A model generated the notes under the pieces. That model was not told the DNA's origin and did not search any database. It was given only the letters and a program-made list of their open reading frames with translations. From a virus: a stretch of 35,146 nt of DNA. A program made the position numbers and the translations under genes. Where the stretch lies: the IMG/VR virus record IMGVR_UViG_3300042478_000975, positions 1 through 35,146 of that record; one strand, given 5' to 3'. Positions 9,496 to 30,390 of this stretch are shown here, piece after piece (position 1 is the first letter of the stretch; each line of letters opens with the position of its first letter).

Positions 9496-10686
9496 ATGTT
9501 ATCATTTAAGTCATTCTTAACGGAAGAATCTGAACAGGGTTCTGAACTTAAACACATTCATCATGCGGAAGATAGGCCATTAATGCATGGCCACGCAGGT
9601 TTTGAACACGCTCATGCAGCTTTGATGAAGGCTCATGAACATATGACTGGTGGCCACAAGAGCACCAACTTAACAATGAAATATGATGGTTCTCCATCAA
9701 TCGTTTTTGGCCACCATCCTAAGAATAATAAATTCTTTGTTGCAACCAAATCAGCATTTAATAAAAATCCAAAAATCAACCATACAGAAGCCGACATTGA
9801 TAAAAATCATGGCCATGCTCCTGGTCTGGCAAAGACACTCAAACACGCATTAAAACATTTACCAAAAGTAACACCAAAAGAAGGTGTATTTCAGGGTGAC
9901 CTGATGCATCATGCTGACACAAAACATTTACATGAAGGATATATTGTAGAAGCAAAAGGTGATGTTTCTTTTACTCCAAACACAATCACTTATACTGCCA
10001 AAGGTAAAGAAGCAGAGAAAGTAAAAAAGTCTAAGGTTGGTGTTGTGGTTCATACACAATACAGCCACGACTTAAAGCATAATACACCCCATGTAGACAT
10101 GAGTAAGTTCAAAGAACATCCAGATGTCCATATTCATGGTGCAGAACACGACACCAGTAAAATTAAACATTCAGCTGAGAATGAAAAACATTTCCAGAAA
10201 CATATGGCTGCAGCCAAAGAAATCCATGACACACATAGTCACAAAATGTATGATGTCGTTCATCCAAAACATAGTGGAGAAGCTGGCCACCTATCAACAT
10301 ACATAAACAAAACAGTAAGACATGACGAAGTGCCAAGTGTTAAAGGATTTAAAGAACATCTACAGAATGCTCATGCAAAATTGGCCGCAAAAGTTTCTAC
10401 TGAGAAGTCTAAATCTGAAAAGACTAAAGAAGGTGCATCACAAATTTCTCATGTAGAAAAACACAAATCACATTATGGAAATTTGTTATCTATGCATCAT
10501 CATTTACACCAAGCCAAAAATGCTTTGGTTAAATCACTAGAAACACATGAAGGACATTACCAACATCACATCGAAGGTAAAAAGTCCAAGCCTGAAGGTT
10601 TCGTAGTTCATCACGATAATCAACCAACCAAATTGGTTAATCGTGCTGAGTTTGCTAAACAAAATTTGTTAAAGGTTAGGAAATGA
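9496..10686 (+). CDS. His-rich ligase/nucleotidyltransferase-like protein with capsid-targeting-type leader
   Basis: This 396-residue basic protein has about 54 His (near 14%). Residues 1-10 (MLSFKSFLTE) match the leader layout of T4 internal head proteins, with Phe at 4 and 7, a hydrophobic residue at 8 and Glu at 10; gp21-type protease would cut after Glu10. The body looks like the covalent nucleotidyltransferase fold of ATP-dependent ligases. KYDGSPSIVFG at residues 62-72 fits motif I (K-x-D-G), followed by FVATKS, GVFQGDLM (130-137), FTPNTITY and a motif V-like KVGVVVHTQY. I recall this phage family as a domain of unknown function (DUF6267). The motifs are visible; ligase activity and packaging are inferred. 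Confidence 0.85.
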   Translation: MLSFKSFLTEESEQGSELKHIHHAEDRPLMHGHAGFEHAHAALMKAHEHMTGGHKSTNLTMKYDGSPSIVFGHHPKNNKFFVATKSAFNKNPKINHTEADIDKNHGHAPGLAKTLKHALKHLPKVTPKEGVFQGDLMHHADTKHLHEGYIVEAKGDVSFTPNTITYTAKGKEAEKVKKSKVGVVVHTQYSHDLKHNTPHVDMSKFKEHPDVHIHGAEHDTSKIKHSAENEKHFQKHMAAAKEIHDTHSHKMYDVVHPKHSGEAGHLSTYINKTVRHDEVPSVKGFKEHLQNAHAKLAAKVSTEKSKSEKTKEGASQISHVEKHKSHYGNLLSMHHHLHQAKNALVKSLETHEGHYQHHIEGKKSKPEGFVVHHDNQPTKLVNRAEFAKQNLLKVRK

Positions 10687-11657
10687 AAAGCTTTAAGGGT
10701 TTTTTAATTGAAGAACAAGGTCGTGGTACTTTAACTGCTTCCGGTAAAACCGGAGAGGACCATCAAAAAAGATATATCGATCCACACATTGGATCCGATA
10801 AACACACTCATGTTTTGGCCAAAGAGCATGATGATATTCCTGCAGGTTCATCTGTAAAACTTCATAAAGCTGAACACATTAATGGAAAAATTCATGTTCA
10901 TGCAGAAGATGAAACCGGTAATCATCATGTAATTCCTATTTCAAAATTACATAAACCGGGTGAAGCTCCTAAAAATAAAGGCCATGAATACGAATCAAAA
11001 TTTGTTGAAAGAATGAAACACCACAAGATTATGCCGGAACACCTATCTGGTGCCGGTTCTTCAAGTGGTACCGATTTTGCAGTTGAAAATAAAAAAAAAG
11101 GTAAGTTTCATGCAGGTACTGTTTCTGGCCATCTACTTAATGGTGAAACGAAAAATGGCACTACAGCGGCTATGGGTCAATTAACAATTCATCACAGTAA
11201 AGATAAAGGTTGGCACATTAAAGATTCACAAAAAGCAAAAAGGCCAGAATATGCTAAACATATAGAAAAGTCTGGCATACTTAATCATATGAACAAACAT
11301 CATCCTGATCCAGAAAAAGAACAATCAACTAGTTCAGGAAGAGCAAAGACTATTGAAATTAAACATCCAAATTTACACCCAGCTGAAGGTTATTTAAAAG
11401 ACCATCATGTTCATGTTTTACAAGTTGGTGGCCACGGAACATATAAAGTTGGTGAGAAAGACGAAACTGGCCATGGACTTCCTTCCATTTCTGGTAAAGG
11501 TAAGTGGCGTATCAGAGAAAAACAAAAAGGTAACAAATCGGCAAGAACTGTTGCTTTTCATCCAGATGGTGTAAAAGGTTTAAACAAAAGTCACATTGAT
11601 TTGGATAAAGATGATGATTTACATAAATTTAAAAAAACATTAGGCCATAGAGATTAA
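10683..11657 (+). CDS. His-rich PD-(D/E)xK nuclease-like protein with capsid-targeting-type leader
   Basis: This 324-residue basic protein has about 36 His (11%) and overlaps the previous gene by four bases. MKSFKGFLIE at residues 1-10 is the second leader of the block. A nuclease-like centre follows: a helix with Glu (HEYESKFVERM, 101-111), G129-T-D131-FAV, then G154-E155-T-K157 and, nine residues after the Lys, GQ. The order E, GxD, ExK, GQ is that of PD-(D/E)xK restriction-type nucleases. The C-terminal half (from about 230) is a basic, probably beta-rich region. If packaged and injected it could cut host or rival DNA, or process phage DNA. Fold and role are inferred from motifs. Confidence 0.8.
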   Translation: MKSFKGFLIEEQGRGTLTASGKTGEDHQKRYIDPHIGSDKHTHVLAKEHDDIPAGSSVKLHKAEHINGKIHVHAEDETGNHHVIPISKLHKPGEAPKNKGHEYESKFVERMKHHKIMPEHLSGAGSSSGTDFAVENKKKGKFHAGTVSGHLLNGETKNGTTAAMGQLTIHHSKDKGWHIKDSQKAKRPEYAKHIEKSGILNHMNKHHPDPEKEQSTSSGRAKTIEIKHPNLHPAEGYLKDHHVHVLQVGGHGTYKVGEKDETGHGLPSISGKGKWRIREKQKGNKSARTVAFHPDGVKGLNKSHIDLDKDDDLHKFKKTLGHRD

Positions 11658-13454
11658 ATGAAATCATTTTTAGAGATAGTTCAAGAAGCTGAATCATCAC
11701 AGAAACATCATGTGATGACTTTTGGTCGCATGAATCCTCCAACCACAGGCCACTTAAAGTTAATTCACAAAGTTAAAGAAGTTGCAGATAAAAACAATGC
11801 AGGACATACTGTTGTGGTATCTCATTCACAAGATTCTAAGAAGAATCCGTTGTCTGGTGAATCTAAAGTTAAACACTTAAAAAGATACGCACCGGGTACT
11901 AATTTAAAATCATCTTCAAAGGAACATCCATCTATCTTTCATCATGCATCCGAATTACACAAACAAGGTGTAACTCATCTTCATGTGGTTGTTGGTTCTG
12001 ACCGTGTTAAAGAATTCAAAGATTCTTTACACAAATACAATGGTGTAAAAGGTAAACATGGTCATTATGATTTCAAAAAAATTACTGTTCATTCTGCTGG
12101 CCATCGTGATCCAGATGCTGAAGGTTCTGAGGGTATGTCTGGCACCAAGATGCGTAGTCATGCAGCTTCAGGTAATTACAAAGAATTCAAAAAAGGTGTA
12201 CCAGAGCACGTTGCGGATAACCACGCAAAAGAACTGTACCATGATACTCGTAAAGGTATGGGAATACATGAAAACATTAACCGTGGTGTGTTCAAAGCAA
12301 TTTTTGTGACTGGTGGACCTGGTTCTGGTAAAGATATCATCATTCGTGAATCCATACCAGAAGCTCGTGCCGTTGAACTCAATGCCAACCAAGCCTATGA
12401 TTACCTTGCGGATAAACAAAAACTATCTGAAAAAACTAGTGATTTCCGCAGAGAGTCTATTCGTAATCGTGGACCTTTGATTATTAATGGACCAGCAGAT
12501 AGTTTTGATAAAATACATTACATCAAAGAAGAATTGGAAGACTTAGGTTATTCTACTATGATGGTATTTGTAAACACCACCAATGAAGTCAGTCAAGAAA
12601 GAAATACCAAATTATCTCGTATGATGGTTGAATCCATCCGGTATGACAAGTGGTCACAAGCTCAGAAAAACAAACAACTTTTTGCCGAATCTTTTGATAA
12701 TTTCATGCAGATAGATAATACAGGTTCAATTGAATCCATTGAGGAAGATATAACAAAAACTTACCTAAATATCAATGAATTCATAGAAAACAAGATGTAT
12801 GGAGATATCTCCTTGTCTTGGTTAGAAAAACGTGGTAAGTTAAATATAGGTAATAACCTAGTGAAGGAAGAAAAAAATGTTCAAAACACTAATAAATTTG
12901 TTAAGATTAAAACCAATCCAGAACTCCGAGCAGCCGGACTCGACAGTTTGTCCCCCGACAACAGAGCAAACGAGCCTCAATCCGATGACATCAGATACAA
13001 CGCTGGCAAGCGACAAAAAACCTACATCTTCAAAACGTACAGCGAAGCCCAACAGCCAACGCTCACCGTCAACCCGGAACCAAAAGAAACCAACTTCTCC
13101 AAAGACAAAGAAAAAGTAAAGAAGAAGCGAATAGTAGATGCACCAACCGTAAGTCAAAGAATACGGAACACCACAGGTGTGGGGCCAGAATTTGATACAC
13201 GCCAGCAGGGAACAGTATATCCCATGTCCGGTCTAGGCGATGTAACATATAGAGAACAAAAAGAATTTAGTAGTTTTAGAAAAACAATTAAAGAGTATAA
13301 AGGCTTTCAAAATGACCCATCTATATCCGATATGGGTGTGGGGGGTGTTTTGAATGGCGCTACTAACTTTGAACCGATGCAGTCCTATAAAGATGCGGAA
13401 CGAAATATTGGTACACAAATAAAAATTAAAAAGAAGAACAAACAGGAGAAATAA
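11658..13454 (+). CDS. Nucleotidyltransferase plus P-loop kinase fusion with leader
   Basis: This 598-residue protein begins directly after the previous stop. Residues 1-10 (MKSFLEIVQE) are a leader of the block. Residues 18-175 are a HIGH-type nucleotidyltransferase: MTFGRMNPPTTGH with T30-G31-H32, VVGSDR, and SGTKMR (161-166) in place of ISSTxIR. Residues 210-370 are a P-loop kinase-like domain with GGPGSGKD (219-226). The order recalls NadR (NMN adenylyltransferase plus ribosylnicotinamide kinase), so NAD salvage is one possibility, but substrate residues were not checked. Residues 400-598 are a polar tail with NPELRAAGLD and QQGTVYPMSGLGDVTYRE blocks that I associate with marine T4-like phages. 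Part of the tail (12915-13215) has unusual C-rich codon use. Confidence 0.88.
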   Translation: MKSFLEIVQEAESSQKHHVMTFGRMNPPTTGHLKLIHKVKEVADKNNAGHTVVVSHSQDSKKNPLSGESKVKHLKRYAPGTNLKSSSKEHPSIFHHASELHKQGVTHLHVVVGSDRVKEFKDSLHKYNGVKGKHGHYDFKKITVHSAGHRDPDAEGSEGMSGTKMRSHAASGNYKEFKKGVPEHVADNHAKELYHDTRKGMGIHENINRGVFKAIFVTGGPGSGKDIIIRESIPEARAVELNANQAYDYLADKQKLSEKTSDFRRESIRNRGPLIINGPADSFDKIHYIKEELEDLGYSTMMVFVNTTNEVSQERNTKLSRMMVESIRYDKWSQAQKNKQLFAESFDNFMQIDNTGSIESIEEDITKTYLNINEFIENKMYGDISLSWLEKRGKLNIGNNLVKEEKNVQNTNKFVKIKTNPELRAAGLDSLSPDNRANEPQSDDIRYNAGKRQKTYIFKTYSEAQQPTLTVNPEPKETNFSKDKEKVKKKRIVDAPTVSQRIRNTTGVGPEFDTRQQGTVYPMSGLGDVTYREQKEFSSFRKTIKEYKGFQNDPSISDMGVGGVLNGATNFEPMQSYKDAERNIGTQIKIKKKNKQEK

Positions 13455-13455
13455 A

Positions 13456-15084
13456 ATGTTCGTTAATAAGTTAAAGATGAATTCCGTTGCTGAAGCTGTA
13501 AAAAAAATTACAGAAAAAGAAGATTCATGTAAAGATGAAGTAAAAAAACATGAAAAAAGACTGCACGGTAAAGATGGTGAAGTCAGCAAGCACGTAGAGA
13601 AAATGCATGAAGAAGAAAGTGAATTGGACGAAGCAGAAAAAGTACCTACTGCAACTGGCATGAGAGTTTACGGTTCTTCCTATGGTAATTCCGCTAAAGC
13701 ACGCCGTGACCAAGTTAAAAAAGAAATTGACACACTCAAAGGTCCTAAGTCTAAAGATTTGATGCAAAAAGACAAAGAAGATTACATGAAAACCAAAGGT
13801 CAATATGATGAAGCTGCCAAGCCAGACTTCTTGGATATGGACAAAGACGGTGACAAGAAAGAGCCAATGAAAAAGGCAGTTGCTGATAAAAAAATGAAAG
13901 AAGATACCGAGTTTAAAGATAAACTGATTGAGGCTCTCAAAGGTAATCAACATAAGATTGATAAGAATAAAAATAACAAGATTGACGCTCAAGACTTTAA
14001 AATTCTCCGAAAAGAAGAATCAGAACAGTTAGATGAATTGAGTCCTGATGCTTTGAAGTCTTATGTTAATAAAGCTAAGCCAGAATTAAGGGCATCTAAA
14101 GAAGTGCGGGATTCAGCTCGTCAAGGTGGTGATGGTAAAACTGCAAATGATATGTATCAATTAGCAAAAAAAAGAACTGCTGGTATCAAACAGGCTAAAG
14201 CAAAATTAAATAAAGAGGATGCACAAGAAGTTGAAGTTGTAATGGATGAGTTAAACGGTTACGCAAAAGTCACCATTGGAGAGCGTTCATTGACAGAGCC
14301 AGAAATGAAAAAGCGTGAAGAAGTTGTTAAGTCTATGAAAAAAGGCTTTGCTGGTTTTAGACAGCGTTATGGAAAAGATGCTAAATCTGTAATGTATGCT
14401 ACTGCTACTAAACAAGCTATGAAAGAAGAACTTGATGAGGCTGTATCTCGTAAAGACTTTCAAATGGTTGCAGATTTAATTAAAACACATGATAACCATG
14501 ATAAACGTAAAGAATTGGCTACACATCACGCTGAAATTTTTCATCGTCAAAATCCAAGATTTGACCGTGCAAAGTTTATGCAAGCTGCAAATGTTCAAGA
14601 AGAAATTGATCCTAGAGTTCGCACCAAAGATACACTAAAAGGTCAAGAAGTAACATCACAATCCGATGATGTTGGTCCCAATTCAAATGGTAGATCCACA
14701 AAAGTAAAATTTCGTGGAGGTCCAATGAAAGAAGAAGTAAAAAGGTCTGATATTCCAGCTTTCATTAGAAAGGCTCGTGGTGACAAACCTTTGACTGTTG
14801 CTGATGTTAAAGCCGGAAGTAAAGATTCTATTTCTTCAAAGGAAAACTTGGCCAAAGCTCGTGGGGTTTCAGAAGGTAAAGGACCTGAGTCTGATACAGT
14901 TCCTTTTGTAACCAATGCTGACCAACCACCTTTTGAAGGACCATATAAGAAAATTGGTTCAACGGTAACAGATAAGTCAGGTGCAAAACATACGCCAATG
15001 TCCCGTGCTAGAGATTTGGCTCGTGCTGCAATGAAACGAATCAAAACAGAGATGTTGGGTAAAGCTCCAGGAAATAACGGCTAA
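13456..15084 (+). CDS. Long charged repeat protein with EF-hand-like loops, probable internal virion protein
   Basis: This 542-residue, very Lys/Glu-rich protein follows a clear AGGAGA ribosome site. It lacks the 10-residue leader at its first Met; MNSVAEAVKKITE, starting at residue 8, could be a divergent one. Two calcium-loop-like motifs are visible: D127-x-D129-x-D131-G, and a fuller one, D169-K-N171-K-N173-N-K-I-D177-A-Q-D180. A modular segment, ESEQLDELSPDALKSYVNKA (189-208), is the same unit that recurs in the next gene. The rest is low-complexity helix. By position and composition I infer a capsid-interior or scaffold-type protein; no enzyme motif is visible. Confidence 0.82.
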   Translation: MFVNKLKMNSVAEAVKKITEKEDSCKDEVKKHEKRLHGKDGEVSKHVEKMHEEESELDEAEKVPTATGMRVYGSSYGNSAKARRDQVKKEIDTLKGPKSKDLMQKDKEDYMKTKGQYDEAAKPDFLDMDKDGDKKEPMKKAVADKKMKEDTEFKDKLIEALKGNQHKIDKNKNNKIDAQDFKILRKEESEQLDELSPDALKSYVNKAKPELRASKEVRDSARQGGDGKTANDMYQLAKKRTAGIKQAKAKLNKEDAQEVEVVMDELNGYAKVTIGERSLTEPEMKKREEVVKSMKKGFAGFRQRYGKDAKSVMYATATKQAMKEELDEAVSRKDFQMVADLIKTHDNHDKRKELATHHAEIFHRQNPRFDRAKFMQAANVQEEIDPRVRTKDTLKGQEVTSQSDDVGPNSNGRSTKVKFRGGPMKEEVKRSDIPAFIRKARGDKPLTVADVKAGSKDSISSKENLAKARGVSEGKGPESDTVPFVTNADQPPFEGPYKKIGSTVTDKSGAKHTPMSRARDLARAAMKRIKTEMLGKAPGNNG

Positions 15085-15093
15085 GGTAAAAAC

Positions 15094-16800
15094 ATGGACG
15101 CAAAGAAATTAAAACTAATTGTTAGGGGTGATAAGAAACCCACTTTTGGCACCGATCCAAATGAACCATGGTCTGTTCGTGCAGGCATCACCGAGAGTGA
15201 GAGAGGTGAATTACACGCTTATCTTAAATCTCGTGGCATTAATCCAGAGTTTGTTAGTAAAGATACAAAAATATCTCATGCAAAATCTTCAGAGTTTCAT
15301 AAATGGAGGCGTGACCACCAGTTTGATGACCCAATCAATTTTGTTTCAACTACTGTTGCGGATAAAATGAAACAACAACGAGCACAAACCGAAGAAGTTG
15401 AGCAAATTGATGAGTTAGCTCCTGAAACTTTGGCATCTTATGTTTTTAAAACAACTAGTAAAGATCCAAAGCGTGCTGAACCTCGTAAAAAGGCCATGAG
15501 TAAGTTAGCTAAGATTATGGCTAAACGGTCATTCTCTGAGGCAAAAACAATTCAAGGTACTGCTTTAGATAAGTTTCGTCAAGCTGCAGCCGAAAGAGCA
15601 AGAAAACATGATGATATTGAACGAGCAATGAAAGCTCGTCATGCTGCAGGTAAAGAAGATATGAAAGGTTCTATTGACCGTTTAGAGAAACAACTCAATA
15701 AAGAGGAATCTGGTGTCAGTAAAGAAACTGAAACTAAATTTCATAAGAAGTTAGACAAACTGGTTCATTCTACTTTTGGTAAAAGAAAAGATGAAATGAA
15801 GATGAAAGAAGAAGTAGAGCAGATTATAGAGAAGAATGTACCAACAAGTCCAGAAAAATGGGCTCGTGCCAAAGCAGCTGCTAAATCTAAATTTGCTGTT
15901 TATCCTTCTGCATATGCCAATGGTTGGGCTTCCAAAAAATACAAAGCAATGGGTGGCGGTTGGAAATCTGTTAACGAAGAAATTGATATCACCGAAAAAA
16001 ATGATTCTCATACACACGCTGCACATTATGAAGATCCAAAAACAGGTGAGTGGACAGGAATGAATTTGTTAGTTGCAAAAGATGATGAAGATGCAATCCG
16101 TCAAGCAAACGAAAAATGTAAAGAAGGTTGCCGACTAACAAAAGTAGAACGACACACTACCGTTAAAGAAGAAGTAGAACAGATTGATGAGTTGAAGATG
16201 TCTACTGTCAAGTCTTATCATAAGAAACGTTTAACTGACTTTTCATATGCAAATAAGAAACCAGGAGAAACCTCTACAAAACCTCGCAATGCAAGGATTA
16301 AAAAAGTTTCTGCTAGTATTGACCGTTCAATAGACCGTCAGACTGGTTATAAACCAACATCTGAATCAGTTGGTTCTACTTTTGGTAAAAGAAAAGATGA
16401 AATGAAGATGAAAGAAGATGTGTTCCAAGATACTCAGGCTGCAACACAGACAGCCTTTGATATGGGGACACAGGCTGATGATAGAGAACCAACTTATTCT
16501 AAAAGAAAAGAAATGTCTAAATCAGCTCGTATGATTAAGTCATTATACAGAAAACACAAGATGGTCAAAGAAGATTTATATGACCATGAAAAAGAAGATA
16601 AATCAGTAGCGACATATGGCAAGAAACCAAAAACTGAAAAACAAGAGGTTTATGGTGACGATGAGGCTCAAGCTGCTATGATTTTAAAAGGTGGAACAAC
16701 ATTAACAGGTCAAACCAGAGATACTTTGGAAATTGATCCAGTAATGAGAAAACCAGTAAGACCTGATAATAAAATCAGTAATAAAAAAACAGATAAATAA
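15094..16800 (+). CDS. Modular repeat protein with EEVEQIDEL units, probable internal virion protein
   Basis: This is a 568-residue basic, Lys/Glu-rich protein. The unit EEVEQIDEL followed by a helix occurs near residues 102 and 360, and a broken copy (EEVEQIIEK) near 240. STFGKRKDEMKMKE occurs twice, 202 residues apart, from a 45-base exact DNA repeat. KFAVYPSAYANGWASKKYK near residue 268 is a motif I know from many phage proteins of unknown role. Each unit ends in I-x-E, which resembles T4 prohead protease sites, so the chain might be cut into peptides inside the prohead; that is inference. It overlaps in style with the preceding gene, and both sit in the cargo block. Confidence 0.82.
   Translation: MDAKKLKLIVRGDKKPTFGTDPNEPWSVRAGITESERGELHAYLKSRGINPEFVSKDTKISHAKSSEFHKWRRDHQFDDPINFVSTTVADKMKQQRAQTEEVEQIDELAPETLASYVFKTTSKDPKRAEPRKKAMSKLAKIMAKRSFSEAKTIQGTALDKFRQAAAERARKHDDIERAMKARHAAGKEDMKGSIDRLEKQLNKEESGVSKETETKFHKKLDKLVHSTFGKRKDEMKMKEEVEQIIEKNVPTSPEKWARAKAAAKSKFAVYPSAYANGWASKKYKAMGGGWKSVNEEIDITEKNDSHTHAAHYEDPKTGEWTGMNLLVAKDDEDAIRQANEKCKEGCRLTKVERHTTVKEEVEQIDELKMSTVKSYHKKRLTDFSYANKKPGETSTKPRNARIKKVSASIDRSIDRQTGYKPTSESVGSTFGKRKDEMKMKEDVFQDTQAATQTAFDMGTQADDREPTYSKRKEMSKSARMIKSLYRKHKMVKEDLYDHEKEDKSVATYGKKPKTEKQEVYGDDEAQAAMILKGGTTLTGQTRDTLEIDPVMRKPVRPDNKISNKKTDK
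15768..15812 (+). repeat. 45-base direct repeat, copy 1
   Basis: This segment recurs without mismatch at 16374-16418, 606 bases later and in the same reading frame. It encodes STFGKRKDEMKMKE. Exact identity at the DNA level suggests recent duplication or conversion within the gene. Confidence 0.9.
16374..16418 (+). repeat. 45-base direct repeat, copy 2
   Basis: This is the second copy of the repeat at 15768-15812. After the repeat the first copy continues into EEVEQI, while this one continues into DVFQDTQAATQ, so the repeat edge marks a module boundary. Confidence 0.9.
16792..16799 (+). promoter_or_regulatory. Possible variant late promoter (GATAAATA)
   Basis: One mismatch to TATAAATA, this lies 31 bases before the ATG of the strongly initiated structural-type gene at 16831. 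The T at the first position is well kept in T4 late promoters, so this is only a candidate. Confidence 0.25.
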
Positions 16801-16830
16801 ACACAAACAAGGCTATTTAAGGAGAATAAA

Positions 16831-17514
16831 ATGCCATCATGGGGAAATAACGATAATGCAGCCAACGCACCGTATTGGGCTGTAAATTCGACAATTATAA
16901 ACGCAACAGATACAAAAATTAACGCTTCTGCTCCAACAGCGGCCAACGTAGCATTATTATACCAAAATACAACACCAGATGTTTATACTACTGATGAAAC
17001 TATTGGTTTATTTGCTGTTGACGCCTTTGAAGCTGATGTTAATGATGAAGTGGCTCATAGTGGATGGGTGCTACGCACCGTTGGATCTGGTGGTCGTGCA
17101 GGTCGTGTGCAACAAGAAGTTTTGATTGCTACCGGCATTATCACAGACAATACCAGCCCAATCTATCCTGATGCAACAATTACTATTAGTTCACAACCAG
17201 GCAGCAATACTGCTAACTTGACAGTTGGTAATACTGCTACATTCCGTGTAACAGCAAGTATCACCGAAGGTAACACAGCAGCTCCGTTGACATTCCAATG
17301 GCAGCGTTCTGCAACAATTGGTGGTTCATATGTAAACGTAGTCAATGCAACACCCGCAAATACAACATACACGGGTGGAACAACAGCCGCATTGGTAGTT
17401 ATTCCTACATTTACTGATGCTGACGACAACTACTACCGTGTAGTAATCAACGCAACAGGTACAGAGGCTACAGCAGTAACTTCTACACCTGCTAAGCTTG
17501 ATGTGGTTGCCTAA
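16831..17514 (+). CDS. Ig-like structural protein, probable capsid decoration or surface protein
   Basis: This 227-residue protein is poor in Lys and rich in Thr, Ala, Asn and Val, unlike its charged neighbours. TAAGGAG upstream is the best ribosome site in the region, which suggests high expression. Residues 1-110 start MPSWGNNDNAANAPYWAV and include a GSGGRAGRVQQEVL segment. Residues 110-227 read as an Ig-like domain: ITISSQPG, a strand with TFRVTAS, the core LTFQWQRS, and DNYYRVVINATGT before the end. Ig-like domains are common in phage head decoration (Hoc-type) and tail proteins that bind glycans or host surfaces. Which virion part it belongs to is not shown. Confidence 0.85.
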   Translation: MPSWGNNDNAANAPYWAVNSTIINATDTKINASAPTAANVALLYQNTTPDVYTTDETIGLFAVDAFEADVNDEVAHSGWVLRTVGSGGRAGRVQQEVLIATGIITDNTSPIYPDATITISSQPGSNTANLTVGNTATFRVTASITEGNTAAPLTFQWQRSATIGGSYVNVVNATPANTTYTGGTTAALVVIPTFTDADDNYYRVVINATGTEATAVTSTPAKLDVVA

Positions 17515-17972
17515 TGTTAGGATTTAAGCAATTTGTTGCAGAAGGACATGATTCATTTCCTATCGCACACATTGAAAAGAGTGGTTCAAACTTGGCGGAC
17601 AAGACAACCCGCCAAGAGTTGAATCACAACCTAGCATTAGCTGTAGCAGGAAACAATATAAATCCATATTCAGCATGGAATCGTGTAAGTAAAGTTTTAG
17701 TTTTATTTGGCATAACTCTCCCTAAAGTAATATTTCACGATTTGGATATGGGTGAAGAAATTGTGCATATAGATCAATTCGGTGCTCGCTCGGGTGCCGA
17801 ATTAAATGGCACAGTAGAGAAGATGAATAATTTGGATGAAGTTCAACATTATTTTTATTTTTCTTATGAAATGAATGATAATGGTTACTATGATGTTGAA
17901 GCGATGATATCTGATGAAAATGAGTTAGATGATTATCTTTCTTCAGAGGAACCAGACATAGAAGAAGAATGA
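17514..17972 (+). CDS. Unknown protein with capsid-targeting-type leader
   Basis: This 152-residue protein is coupled to the Ig-like gene (TAATG at 17512-17516). Residues 1-10 are MLGFKQFVAE followed by Gly, a very good match to a gp21-type cleavage site (hydrophobic-Ala-Glu|Gly). The body has no motif I recognise; it includes FHDLDMGEEIVHIDQFG, a YFYFSYEMND strand and a very acidic C-terminus (last 35 residues mainly Asp, Glu and Ser). Acidic, leader-bearing and late, it is best seen as an internal head protein of unknown role. Confidence 0.82.
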   Translation: MLGFKQFVAEGHDSFPIAHIEKSGSNLADKTTRQELNHNLALAVAGNNINPYSAWNRVSKVLVLFGITLPKVIFHDLDMGEEIVHIDQFGARSGAELNGTVEKMNNLDEVQHYFYFSYEMNDNGYYDVEAMISDENELDDYLSSEEPDIEEE

Positions 17973-17976
17973 TATA

Positions 17977-18363
17977 ATGATTGATGATTTAAATGATGAT
18001 AATTTTTTGATATATGCGGTAAAGTGCTACGATGCACCACATTGTATTATGTCTGAATTTGAGAGCGATATTAAACGAACAAAATATTTGAAGCGTTTGT
18101 TTCGTAGATATAAAATTACTAAATCTCTTAAAGAGAGATTAATATTAAATCATATTATTTTATTGAATAATGTTTTTGGTCCTGAAGCAACGGCTAGAAT
18201 ATTATTCTATAAGATAGACGAGAGAGATTATGATATACTCAAAACTTTCTTGTCATATTTGAACATTGTACCAGAAATGGTTTACGGTATTAGAGGTAAA
18301 AACATTTCGGTCGTAGAAATACAAATAGATGTTAATGTCGCAGAGATATTGAGGCAAATATGA
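17977..18363 (+). CDS. Conserved-type phage protein without leader
   Basis: This 128-residue, mainly helical protein lies between two leader-bearing genes but has no leader. FLIYAVKCYDAPHC, then RTKYLKRLFRRY, then KERLILNHIILLNNVFGPEATARILFYKI form three helices of a kind I recall from an uncharacterised T4-like phage family. It has an acidic N-terminus and no membrane segment or catalytic motif. The ATG at 17977 has no strong ribosome site. Its fixed place in the block may mean a role in head assembly; function is unknown. Confidence 0.78.
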   Translation: MIDDLNDDNFLIYAVKCYDAPHCIMSEFESDIKRTKYLKRLFRRYKITKSLKERLILNHIILLNNVFGPEATARILFYKIDERDYDILKTFLSYLNIVPEMVYGIRGKNISVVEIQIDVNVAEILRQI

Positions 18364-18680
18364 AAACATTCAAACAGTTTGTAACCGAAGAATACTTGGA
18401 TGAAAAATCTCCAGCATGGCAACGTTCTGCAGGTAAAGATCCAGAGGGTGGACTGAATCGTAAAGGTATTGCCTCTTATCGTAGAGAAAATCCAGGTTCC
18501 AAATTATCTATGGCTGTCACAACAAAGCCGTCTAAACTAAAACCAGGTTCTAAATCAGCCAATCGTAGAAAATCATTTTGTGCTCGTATGGGTGGCATGA
18601 AGAAACGATTAACCTCTGCTAAGACAGCAAATGATCCAGATAGCCGTATCAATAAAGCTTTAAGAAAGTGGAACTGCTAA
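18360..18680 (+). CDS. Small basic protein (SPAWQR family) with capsid-targeting-type leader
   Basis: This 106-residue strongly basic protein overlaps the previous gene by four bases. Leader: MKTFKQFVTE (1-10), the closest in this window to the T4 IPII/IPIII leader MKTYQEFIAE. The rest is a widely spread phage motif set: SPAWQRSAGK-x-PEGGLNRKG, ENPGSKL, KP-SKLKPGSK, RRKSFCARMGGMK and DPDSRINKALRKW. I recall this as a domain of unknown function (DUF6321). Charge suggests DNA binding inside the head. The leader and family are visible; packaging is inferred. Confidence 0.88.
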   Translation: MKTFKQFVTEEYLDEKSPAWQRSAGKDPEGGLNRKGIASYRRENPGSKLSMAVTTKPSKLKPGSKSANRRKSFCARMGGMKKRLTSAKTANDPDSRINKALRKWNC

Positions 18681-19225
18681 TGCAATCTTTTAAAGAATAC
18701 CTTGGTGAAGATTTACGCCAATGGTTTAAGCAAAAGTGGGTTCGCATGGACACTAAAGGTAATATCAAAGGTGATTGTGCGAGAGAACCAGGCGAAGGCA
18801 AACCAAAGTGTTTACCTCAAGCCAAAGCACACGCCATTGGTAAAGATGCCCGTGCTTCAGCTGCTCGTAGAAAGCGTAGAGAAGATCCTAATCCAGAACG
18901 CCGTGGTGCACCAATTAATGTAAAAACTGAAAACGTTTTTGAAGCCTGTTGGAGAGGTTATGTTGCCAGAGGTATGAAGAAAAAAGGTGACCGTATGGTA
19001 CCTAATTGTGTACCTGAAGAAATTGATATTCCAGTTTTAGAAGGTGAAGAAGAATGGTCAATGAGAGTTATAGATGAAGATGGTGCAATAGGTGGTTCAT
19101 CAGGACCAACGAATGTAACTGGTGTTGCAACGTCTACCGATCCCATTAGTGCTAGTGCTGTTAATAGAAGGAAAAGAAAGAGTCCTGTTATGATGTCCAT
19201 CAGGAGAAAACCTCCAAAGGCTTAA
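18680..19225 (+). CDS. Basic protein (FKxKWVR family) with capsid-targeting-type leader
   Basis: I place the start at ATG 18680, which overlaps the previous stop by one base and exposes the leader MQSFKEYLGE; an upstream GTG at 18668 would hide it. This gives 181 residues. After the leader come DLRQWFKQKWVRMD, G-D-C-x-R-x-PGEGKPKCLPQAKA and a basic RRKRREDP stretch, then ACWRGYVARGMKKK and MVPNCVPEE, all short motifs shared by many phage proteins of unknown role. The C-terminus is Ser/Thr-rich and ends in a basic tail. It is the last leader-bearing gene before the lysis block. Confidence 0.86.
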   Translation: MQSFKEYLGEDLRQWFKQKWVRMDTKGNIKGDCAREPGEGKPKCLPQAKAHAIGKDARASAARRKRREDPNPERRGAPINVKTENVFEACWRGYVARGMKKKGDRMVPNCVPEEIDIPVLEGEEEWSMRVIDEDGAIGGSSGPTNVTGVATSTDPISASAVNRRKRKSPVMMSIRRKPPKA

Positions 19226-19721: not shown

Positions 19722-19857
19722 AGATAAAAAGACATTAGCAGACCTGTTACAAAATGCTAATGAGAATTACGGACTGTATTATGAGTTACAAGATAGATAT
19801 AACGCATGGCAGTTATGGTATAAACAACAGAAACAAATATTTGATAGTGTAAAATGA
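19564..19857 (+). CDS. Outer-membrane lipoprotein spanin (Rz1-like), overlapping Rz
   Basis: This 97-residue protein begins within the Rz-like gene in another frame and runs 136 bases past it; an AGAAGG site precedes the ATG. The signal peptide LLILSVSCLMMLGC ends in a lipobox with Cys24 as the lipidated residue. A Pro-rich part (FPEAPQVLMEPAPVLKPL) and a helix follow, as usual in Rz1. It should sit in the outer membrane and bind the i-spanin through its C-terminus. Its stop overlaps the nuclease start (ATGA). Confidence 0.87.
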   Translation: MLGILKQREKLLILSVSCLMMLGCSTTVPLSQKFPEAPQVLMEPAPVLKPLSEDKKTLADLLQNANENYGLYYELQDRYNAWQLWYKQQKQIFDSVK

Positions 19858-20288
19858 AAAAACTACTACTTGTATTACTTGCAATGCCAATGTTGGTGAT
19901 GGCACAAAAAACTCCGCAAGGTGTAACCTATGATGCACAGATTGTCCGCATGATTGATGGCGATACTGTGGTCATAGCGGCTCCCTTTTTACCAGCACCA
20001 CTTAAACCCGAACTTGCCGTTAGAATATTCGGTGTGGATACTCCAGAAAAAGGACACAGAGCTCAATGTCCTTCCGAAGATACCCGTGGCAAGGCCGCTA
20101 CTGAATTTACAAAAGCCGCCATTGCAAAATCTACCAAGCGTCAAGTTGTGTTGTATAGCTGGGATAAATTTGGTGGCCGTGTCTTAGGTGACATCATTTT
20201 AGATGGACAATCATTACGCACAGGTCTAATTCAAAATGGTTTTGCTCGTGAATACTTTGGTGATGCAAAGCAATCATGGTGTAATTAA
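19854..20288 (+). CDS. Exported thermonuclease-like (staphylococcal nuclease fold) protein
   Basis: This 144-residue protein has a Sec signal peptide (MKK, then a Leu/Met-rich core, likely cut after VMA at residue 17). The SNase residues are present: D35 in IDGDT, R57, D62 and E65 in VRIFGVDTPE, and R109 in WDKFGGRVLGD. Two Cys could form a disulphide. The family cleaves DNA and RNA using calcium. It is coupled to the spanin gene before it and the lipoprotein gene after it, so it is likely made with the lysis genes and exported to the periplasm. Possible roles are degrading host DNA released at lysis or attacking competing DNA; both are inference. Confidence 0.93.
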   Translation: MKKLLLVLLAMPMLVMAQKTPQGVTYDAQIVRMIDGDTVVIAAPFLPAPLKPELAVRIFGVDTPEKGHRAQCPSEDTRGKAATEFTKAAIAKSTKRQVVLYSWDKFGGRVLGDIILDGQSLRTGLIQNGFAREYFGDAKQSWCN

Positions 20289-30018: not shown

Positions 30019-30390
30019 ATGCACGACAAAGAACGAATTATCGTAACAGTTGGTGAATTCGATCCGTTAGATTCTAACGATTTACGCTTTCTCCAACGGT
30101 GCAGGAGAAAAGGTGATTGGTTGGTCGTAGGAGTTCATTCAGATTGGTGGATGGTCTATGCTCTTGGTGGGTTTACTCACAATTACAATACTCGCCGAGA
30201 GATTGTTGAAAATATAAGATGTGTTGGTGAAGTATTCTCATTCAATGATTCTGATGGTACAGTCTGCCAACTACTTAAAATAGTAAAAATTTGTTATCCA
30301 CATTCCGACATTACCTATGTGTCAAATATGGATATGCATAATATGCCCGAAACTAAAATTAGAGGCATAACTTTTGAAACGATGAAATAG
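30019..30390 (+). CDS. Cytidylyltransferase-like protein lacking the HxGH motif
   Basis: This 123-residue protein follows directly after the previous stop. Layout matches the glycerol-3-phosphate cytidylyltransferase / RfaE-type nucleotidyltransferase: GEFDPLDSNDLRFLQ (where active enzymes read G-x-FDPLHxGH), GDWLVVGVHSD, TRREIVENIRCVGEVFSFND, and a later ITYVSN. Both His of HxGH are replaced (D-S-N-D), and the C-terminal ISSTxIR block reads ETKIRGITF. Activity by the usual mechanism is therefore doubtful. It may have been repurposed as a binding protein. Confidence 0.85.
   Translation: MHDKERIIVTVGEFDPLDSNDLRFLQRCRRKGDWLVVGVHSDWWMVYALGGFTHNYNTRREIVENIRCVGEVFSFNDSDGTVCQLLKIVKICYPHSDITYVSNMDMHNMPETKIRGITFETMK

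Follow-up and report, generated by a model that had tools for sequence, protein, structure and literature searches.

Six proteins encoded by a lake-and-sediment relative of phage T4 begin with ten-residue leaders that are very probably capsid-targeting sequences (CTS) of the T4 type, loading the attached proteins as cargo; core binding, cleavage, ejection and the behaviour of this phage itself are inferred from relatives. The stretch of viral DNA analysed here, called the window, is 35,146 nucleotides long. An earlier note on it had read the shared N-termini as a general cargo-loading tag, and this reading is supported by the presence of gp21 in relatives, by conservation of the positions critical in T4 IPIII, by the rarity of the tag and by virion mass spectrometry (MS) of relatives. 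The tag itself is already known as the T4 CTS. For its broader role in loading enzymes across aquatic T4-like phages we found no earlier description. In the open-licence literature (subscription papers were outside the search), no link of capsid targeting to DUF6267 or to cyanophages was found, the sole exception being a review of T4 with a single mention of cyanophage.

Leaders and bodies in the window

The strict pattern M-x-x-F-x-x-[FIY]-[LV]-x-E occurs at the starts of six open reading frames (ORFs) of the window, all on the + strand, at 9496, 10683, 11658, 17514, 18360 and 18680, and at no other ORF start; among the internal Met residues of the window it is matched by 0 of 190. The six N-termini that had been listed earlier were all found at these positions. 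F4 and E10 are present in 6/6, position 7 is F, I or Y, and position 8 is L or V, the V being an extension of the L/I consensus of T4.

The first leader (MLSFKSFLTE, 9496..9525) is the N-terminus of a 396-aa protein (9496..10686) of the DUF6267 family (PF19782, 318 bits). Seven residues of this body (K62, D64, G65, E367, G368, V370, and K379) are invariant in 34 sequences, and the motifs KxDG, EGxV and K/R suggest a covalent nucleotidyltransferase or ligase-like enzyme, an activity inferred from motifs only. Its AF2 model has a pLDDT of 85.5, with residues 1–19 disordered, and comparison with the PDB gave no significant profile, sequence or fold match. The second (MKSFKGFLIE, 10683..10712) starts a 324-aa protein (10683..11657) that sits in a variable cargo slot and has a conserved E...D...ExK...Q arrangement (E104, E155, K157, and Q166 invariant, D131 nearly so). 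By motif only, this body is PD-(D/E)XK nuclease-like, its nuclease function being inferred; neither profile nor fold searches of the PDB returned anything significant. Both of these leaders are disordered in the AF2 models (pLDDT <50).

Behind the third leader (MKSFLEIVQE, 11658..11687) lies a 598-aa protein (11658..13454) that joins a cytidylyltransferase/NMNAT-like domain (PF01467, phrog_3041) to a zeta-toxin-like kinase domain of the P-loop kind. The N-terminal domain scores 30.5 bits against a curated cut-off of 21, with its FGRxNPPTxGH motif aligned; the kinase half of the window protein falls short of the Pfam cut-off, while a stand-alone relative passes (Zeta_toxin, 35.9 bits). The earlier note had named ligase-like, nuclease-like and nucleotidyltransferase-kinase domains: the nucleotidyltransferase stands, the kinase rests on the stand-alone relative, and the other two remain at motif level. 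The last three leaders are MLGFKQFVAE (17514..17543), on a 152-aa protein of no known family (17514..17972), MKTFKQFVTE (18360..18389), on a 106-aa DUF6321 protein (PF19846, 18360..18680), and MQSFKEYLGE (18680..18709), on a 181-aa phrog_727-related protein (18680..19225). The mechanical ORF of this last gene starts at a GTG 12 bases upstream, but the ATG at 18680, which overlaps the preceding stop, is the likelier start. Family searches recognized no enzyme domain in these three proteins, which are half of the tagged window set. The six bodies are mutually unrelated, as had been claimed.

Four untagged neighbours lie on the same strand. The charged, repeat-bearing protein of 542 aa (13456..15084) has short segments in common with the virion proteins S-SCSM1_92 and S-CREM2 gp111, and the protein of 568 aa (15094..16800), also charged and with EEVEQIDEL repeats, is inferred to be a likely head or core protein; enrichment of L/I-x-E sites was not significant in either (P=0.065 and 0.43, respectively). 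The other two belong to the phrog_613 head protein family (16831..17514) and to DUF7207 (PF23837, 17977..18363).

A chance origin of the six tags is excluded by two backgrounds: internal Met residues, of which 18/13,488 (0.13%) fit the pattern, and, more strictly, the gene starts of two gp21-less phages, of which 2/383 (0.5%) do. For 6 tagged genes among the 51 of the window, the binomial P is 9e-11 with the first background and about 3e-7 with the second. In related contigs, 437 of 2,369 gene starts are tagged (18.5%, vs the 0.13% of internal Mets), an absolute rate that is inflated because the contigs were picked by two cargo bodies. A control scan of T4 returned ipII, ipIII and gene 61.1 only, and bore out the earlier statement that IPII and IPIII start with MKTYQEFIAE. 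Scans of whole genomes found the tags to be rare elsewhere in the genome, which disposes of the objection that such leaders might be equally common on cytoplasmic proteins. In S-CBWM1, where no gp21 was found, there was no match genome-wide and the NMNAT has no tag; S-TIM5 has two matches despite having no gp21, and the gp21-less negative control is therefore only partly clean.

Exchange of and selection on the leader in relatives

In 232 related contigs, the tag is found on about 40 body clusters defined by BLAST, including a PF00406 adenylate kinase, and the body under the tag differs between close relatives. One relative (L175) encodes a protein that shares about 75% identity with the 10683 family, but this homology ends at the leader. 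The tag is thus modular: it stands on unrelated bodies, several of them enzyme-like, and is exchangeable at its boundary. When ORFs were selected by body, the tag was present on 49/64 DUF6267 and 50/104 cytidylyltransferase ORFs, and some of the remainder had shifted or variant forms. Melnitz (Methylophilales) and HTVC008M also have tagged or variant relatives. In the cargo slot between DUF6267 and the transferase, families of 397 and 466 aa (14 loci) have no tag; the proposition that all genes in this slot are tagged is false, with an insert lacking the strict tag at 25 loci. Nor was it borne out that stand-alone kinases regain a strict tag of their own: among 14 P-loop-kinase matches beginning near the N-terminus, some of which are duplicates of one contig or fragments, a single one has it, the rest being F4-type variants, untagged or fragments.

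It is possible, although we consider it unlikely, that the tag does target the prohead core and that the proteins serve head assembly only, without being delivered as working enzymes. In T4, mutation of IPIII impairs head assembly (PMC9026906), and the lack of a recognisable enzyme domain in the 17514, 18360 and 18680 proteins would agree with such a role. However, domains found behind the tag elsewhere are those of an adenylate kinase, a SAM lyase, a kinase and a nucleotidyltransferase, among others, and the swapping of bodies under the tag between close relatives is a better fit to cargo than to scaffold.

The DUF6267 leader is under strong purifying selection at positions 4, 7, 8 and 10 (nonsynonymous 0.03, synonymous 0.18, in 56 genes), whereas positions 2, 3, 5, 6 and 9 drift (0.47 and 0.17, in the same 56 genes). 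E10 is present in 56/56 DUF6267 and 59/60 cytidylyltransferase genes; in cytidylyltransferase leaders, positions 7 and 8 vary among L, I and V. In T4 IPIII, positions 4 and 7 set head targeting, positions 8 and 10 set processing by gp21, and the ten leader residues alone suffice for targeting (PMC9026906). An IPIII carrying Asp at position 10 is still targeted but escapes cleavage. The positions conserved in relatives of the window proteins are those that are experimentally important in IPIII.

A gp21-type protease (PF03420, 111–130 bits, with conserved H and S) is encoded in five of nine close-relative contigs, which are fragments, and is absent within the 35-kb window itself. Cyanophage major capsid proteins and gp21 also have [LI]-x-E near the N-terminus (e.g., LLTE|A and ILTE|A in capsid proteins), as would be expected if the leader were merely a prohead-protease site, or a core-binding helix common to many head proteins, and another signal did the packaging. 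This explanation seems very improbable to us: positions 4 and 7, which are outside the cleavage site, show the same degree of conservation in DUF6267 as 8 and 10 do, and the sufficiency of the ten T4 residues also speaks against it.

Virion proteins of related cyanophages

Published MS detected 52 of the 219 CDS of cyanophage S-CREM2 in virions. With a pattern fixed before this genome was examined, exactly four CDS were matched, and 4/4 are virion proteins (P=0.0029), namely a SAM lyase, a kinase, a cytidylyltransferase and one unknown. Homologs of the 11658 protein are virion proteins in S-CREM2, S-SCSM1 and S-SZBM1 alike (published MS), and the virion-borne cytidylyltransferases of the latter two are also tagged. 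Leaders of the cyanophage virion enzymes are MKRFDAFLTE, MKDFDSFLEE, MKNFSSFLTE, MKSFLQFLKE and the nine-residue MRFRQFIIE. Absence from virions, which would have refuted the earlier reading, therefore does not apply in relatives. For the three phages pooled, 5/8 tagged proteins are in the virion lists (P=0.008); S-SZBM1_191, S-SZBM1_192 and S-SCSM1_30 are missing from them (small proteins, shallow lists). The DUF6321 domain is also found in the virion-detected S-SCSM1_29 and S-CREM2 gp137, while in S-SZBM1_192 it follows a leader. Part of the 181-aa window protein matches the virion-detected S-CREM2 gp160.

The S-CREM2 authors raise carry-over as a possible source of virion enzymes (PMC10665884), in which case these would be abundant contaminants from infected cells and the likeness of their leaders would be unrelated to packaging. 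We give this little weight: the pattern singles out four S-CREM2 proteins genome-wide, every one on the virion list, while neither the untagged DUF6267 homolog of S-SZBM1 nor the weak one of S-CREM2 appears on such a list, and the conserved residues match the T4 targeting and cleavage determinants. Shared ancestry by gene duplication, to which the location of the six genes within one 10-kb cluster might point, is scarcely tenable and is rejected in view of the roughly 40 body clusters, besides which leader DNAs differ in codon use, the L175 protein ceases to resemble its tagged relatives at the leader, and selection acts on alternate residues only.

Proposed loading route and known systems

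According to the capsid-targeting reading, the six proteins would be made with the ten-residue N-terminal tag, whose residues 4 and 7 would bind the prohead core, so that the protein becomes incorporated into the head. A gp21-type prohead protease would then cut after [L/V]-x-E at Glu10 and free the mature protein inside the head, a cleavage that is inferred, and the cargo is presumed to exit with the DNA at infection and to act first in the new cell. More tentatively, and as no more than a possibility, aquatic T4-like phages may carry a swappable kit of injected enzymes, in which an exchangeable CTS loads any acquired early-acting enzyme; anti-restriction, NAD/nucleotide restoration and repair of genome ends could begin before any phage gene expression, and cargo turnover would represent the phage's part in an arms race with host defence. 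The enzymes named for this kit are a SAM lyase, kinases, adenylate kinase, an NMNAT-like transferase and, at motif level, ligase- and nuclease-like proteins.

A T4-type tag offers a mechanism for the enzymes recurrently found by MS in cyanophage particles. Any protein bearing the tag can be predicted to be head cargo, and the N-terminus of its mature form can be predicted too, which makes the question testable from sequence, and the tag provides a means of listing pre-loaded proteins across many aquatic phages. It also points to DUF6267, DUF6321 and the 10683 family, all of unknown function, as acting at the very start of infection.

Several known systems are comparable. The head ejection proteins of SPN3US and phiKZ resemble what is inferred here in being internal, ejected and processed by a prohead protease, but several of their propeptides exceed 100 residues (PMC5694885). 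In P1, an N-terminal signal brings the anti-restriction protein DarB into the head, and its 30 N-terminal residues suffice for a reporter; Dar N-termini, however, have no consensus (PMC9024508). The T4 enzyme Alt, an ADP-ribosyltransferase, is synthesised as a precursor that gp21 processes, travels in the head and is then ejected; its propeptide has seven residues (PMC9026906). It is not returned by our pattern, and here many bodies share one leader. The virion enzymes of S-CREM2, S-SCSM1 and S-SZBM1 (kinase, SAM hydrolase/lyase, cytidylyltransferase/NMNAT) were published as puzzling virion proteins, with no loading signal mentioned in the portions of those reports available to us, and carry the same leader. 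The last of these systems is the CTS of T4 IPI, IPII and IPIII (Mullaney and Black, 1996, summarised in PMC9026906). There, position 4 is Tyr instead of Phe and the proteins are small and basic, whereas the window has six leaders in one 10-kb cluster, on large nucleotidyltransferase, P-loop, DUF6267 and other bodies, and their cleavage is not shown. Common to both are a ten-residue N-terminal leader with an aromatic residue at 4, an aromatic or hydrophobic one at 7, L/I/V at 8 and Glu at 10, unrelated bodies behind that one leader, and an encoded prohead protease, here in relatives.

Occurrence of the leader

The six ORFs starting at 9496, 10683, 11658, 17514, 18360 and 18680, which the earlier note had described as sharing a ten-residue leader, were present as described; no other ORF start in the window fits the strict motif M-x-x-F-x-x-[FILVY]-[LVI]-x-E, nor does any of the 190 internal methionines there. 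A looser pattern occurred at 18 of 13,488 internal methionines in 2.1 Mb of related contigs, a background on which 6 tagged genes out of 51 has a P of about 1e-10. On a gene-start background (2/383 starts in two phages in which no gp21 prohead protease was found), P = 3e-7. S-TIM5, a myovirus in which no protease of the gp21 family was found, has pattern matches at 53153 and 135243, which we read either as background or as an unrelated use.

The identical pattern was applied to T4 as a positive control and picked out ipII and ipIII, together with the uncharacterised gene 61.1. The latter (AF158101 18966-19130, locus L353) encodes a hypothetical protein of 54 aa whose start, MKTFKEFIKEDM, fits the capsid-targeting pattern; it adjoins the primase gene 61, and the aquatic cargo cluster likewise lies near a primase gene. 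Its product is a candidate for further T4 head cargo.

The window is part of a T4-like myovirus, since Pfam identifies a T4-type RNase H and a ribonucleotide reductase, and since it shares with HTVC008M, Melnitz and the cyanophages a series of DUF6267, cytidylyltransferase, head-protein and DUF7207 genes that precedes primase and nrd genes. Related contigs encode gp21 (PF03420, 111-130 bits) with the conserved His and Ser kept, and their capsid proteins have L-x-E sites in the propeptide region. Elsewhere in the window, 190-1299 encodes a 369-aa protein whose match to DruA (PF14236) scores 33.8 bits and passes the cut-off. DruA belongs to the Druantia defence system and is here encoded by a phage; the relatives G001 and G002 have ORFs of equal length and similar start at the matching place. 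At 19854-20288 lies a staphylococcal-nuclease-like protein (PF00565) that seems to have a signal peptide. Two charged proteins with EEVEQIDEL-type repeats occupy 13456-16800, the first having a KPDFLDxDKDGxKKEPMKKA segment in common with the virion protein S-SCSM1_92.

Constraint on the leader and exchange of bodies

Targeting of T4 IPIII to the head needs no more than its first ten residues; positions 4 and 7 matter for this step, and 8 and 10 for cleavage (PMC9026906). The gp21 protease cleaves after L/I-x-E. Across 56 distinct DUF6267 genes, pairwise nonsynonymous differences averaged 0.03 at codons 4, 7, 8 and 10 and 0.47 at codons 2, 3, 5, 6 and 9, with equal synonymous change (0.18 vs 0.17). 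In the cytidylyltransferase family, F4 is kept in 60/60 and E10 in 59/60, mostly with L/I/V at 7 and 8. When ORFs were chosen by body alone, the leader was found on 49 of 64 DUF6267 and 50 of 104 cytidylyltransferase proteins, the others having shifted or variant leaders or none. Together, these observations support the leader as a targeting tag. That the leader is cut after Glu10, that the cargo leaves with the DNA and that its enzymes act early are inferences by analogy with T4.

In related contigs, 437 ORFs carry the leader, and their bodies fall into about 40 clusters. One body is a plain adenylate kinase (PF00406, 151 bits); others are a zeta-toxin-like kinase and a protein judged HAD-like by eye. 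This set of contigs was gathered using two cargo bodies, and its 18.5% tag rate is not a general frequency. The slot between the DUF6267 and transferase genes is empty at 60 loci, holds a tagged insert of one of several unrelated bodies at 25, and an insert lacking the strict tag at another 25. A protein of relative L175, with about 75% identity to the 10683 family, no longer has the tag: its homology ends at the leader, where a different N-terminus, ending in ILTE, stands instead. A second shared N-terminus, IYxxRAGL[LI]xE, occurs in L007 (body related to tagged ones) and L038 (a further slot protein). L007, L038 and L175 all have SLQLxIYxxRAGL-[LI]xE, or ...RAGIALDEEGLPILTE, where the tag would be, and two of the three have bodies akin to those of tagged cargo; we infer that this is possibly a second leader type.

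Behind the leaders, the 9496 body is DUF6267 (PF19782, 318 bits), 11658 combines an NMNAT/cytidylyltransferase-like domain (PF01467, phrog_3041) with a P-loop domain, and 18360 is DUF6321; no Pfam family was found for 10683, 17514 or 18680. A second cytidylyltransferase-like protein at 30019-30390 (PF01467, 22.1 bits) is leaderless and offers a natural untagged comparison for 11658. The ligase-like and nuclease-like labels proposed earlier hold at motif level only. The invariant KxDG, EGxV and K/R residues of DUF6267 are reminiscent of covalent nucleotidyltransferases such as ligases, and the conserved E...D...ExK...Q of the 10683 family is putatively nuclease-like. No significant match came from a PDB fold search with the confident DUF6267 AF2 model (pLDDT 85.5) or a fold search with the 10683 model (pLDDT 73.7); the leader is disordered in both.

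Tagged proteins in cyanophage virions and the T4 precedent

No proteome exists for the window phage itself, and virion claims rest on relatives. The pattern, set before the S-CREM2 genome was examined, matched 4 of its 219 annotated CDS: gp6 (SAM lyase PF23780, MKDFDSFLEE), gp14 (kinase, MKRFDAFLTE), gp136 (MQTFSMFFSE) and gp154 (cytidylyltransferase, MKNFSSFLTE). All four are on its list of 52 virion proteins (P=0.0029; PMC10665884 Table 3), and in the remaining non-lytic enzyme there, gp12, an N-terminal extension precedes LRFASFMAE|AA. Annotated as Cas9, gp12 had no Pfam match; gp13 starts MKDLHSFLTE. Both gp12 (L111:7704-10313) and S-CRM01_128c (L117:15701-16252) open with SRWxxWSxG, after which comes a CTS-like core (LSLDSFIKE|AA in S-CRM01_128c), perhaps a longer leader form.

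The S-SCSM1 virion NMNAT starts MKSFLQFLKE and the S-SZBM1 virion cytidylyltransferase MRFRQFIIE, shorter by one residue. Of the tagged proteins, two small ones from S-SZBM1 and one from S-SCSM1 are missing from the virion lists, and the untagged DUF6267 homolog of S-SZBM1 is not on that phage's list either. Pooled, 5 of 8 pattern matches are virion proteins (P=0.008). Other virion-detected proteins, S-SCSM1_29 and S-CREM2 gp137 and gp160, contain DUF6321 or 18680-like sequence.

Our literature search found neither a description of the tag across aquatic T4-like phages on rotating enzyme-like cargo nor a proposal that it explains enzymes in cyanophage virions. The tag itself is of a known kind, the T4 CTS; a 2022 review suggested that the CTS could allow T4-like phages to bring a variety of proteins into the head (PMC9026906).
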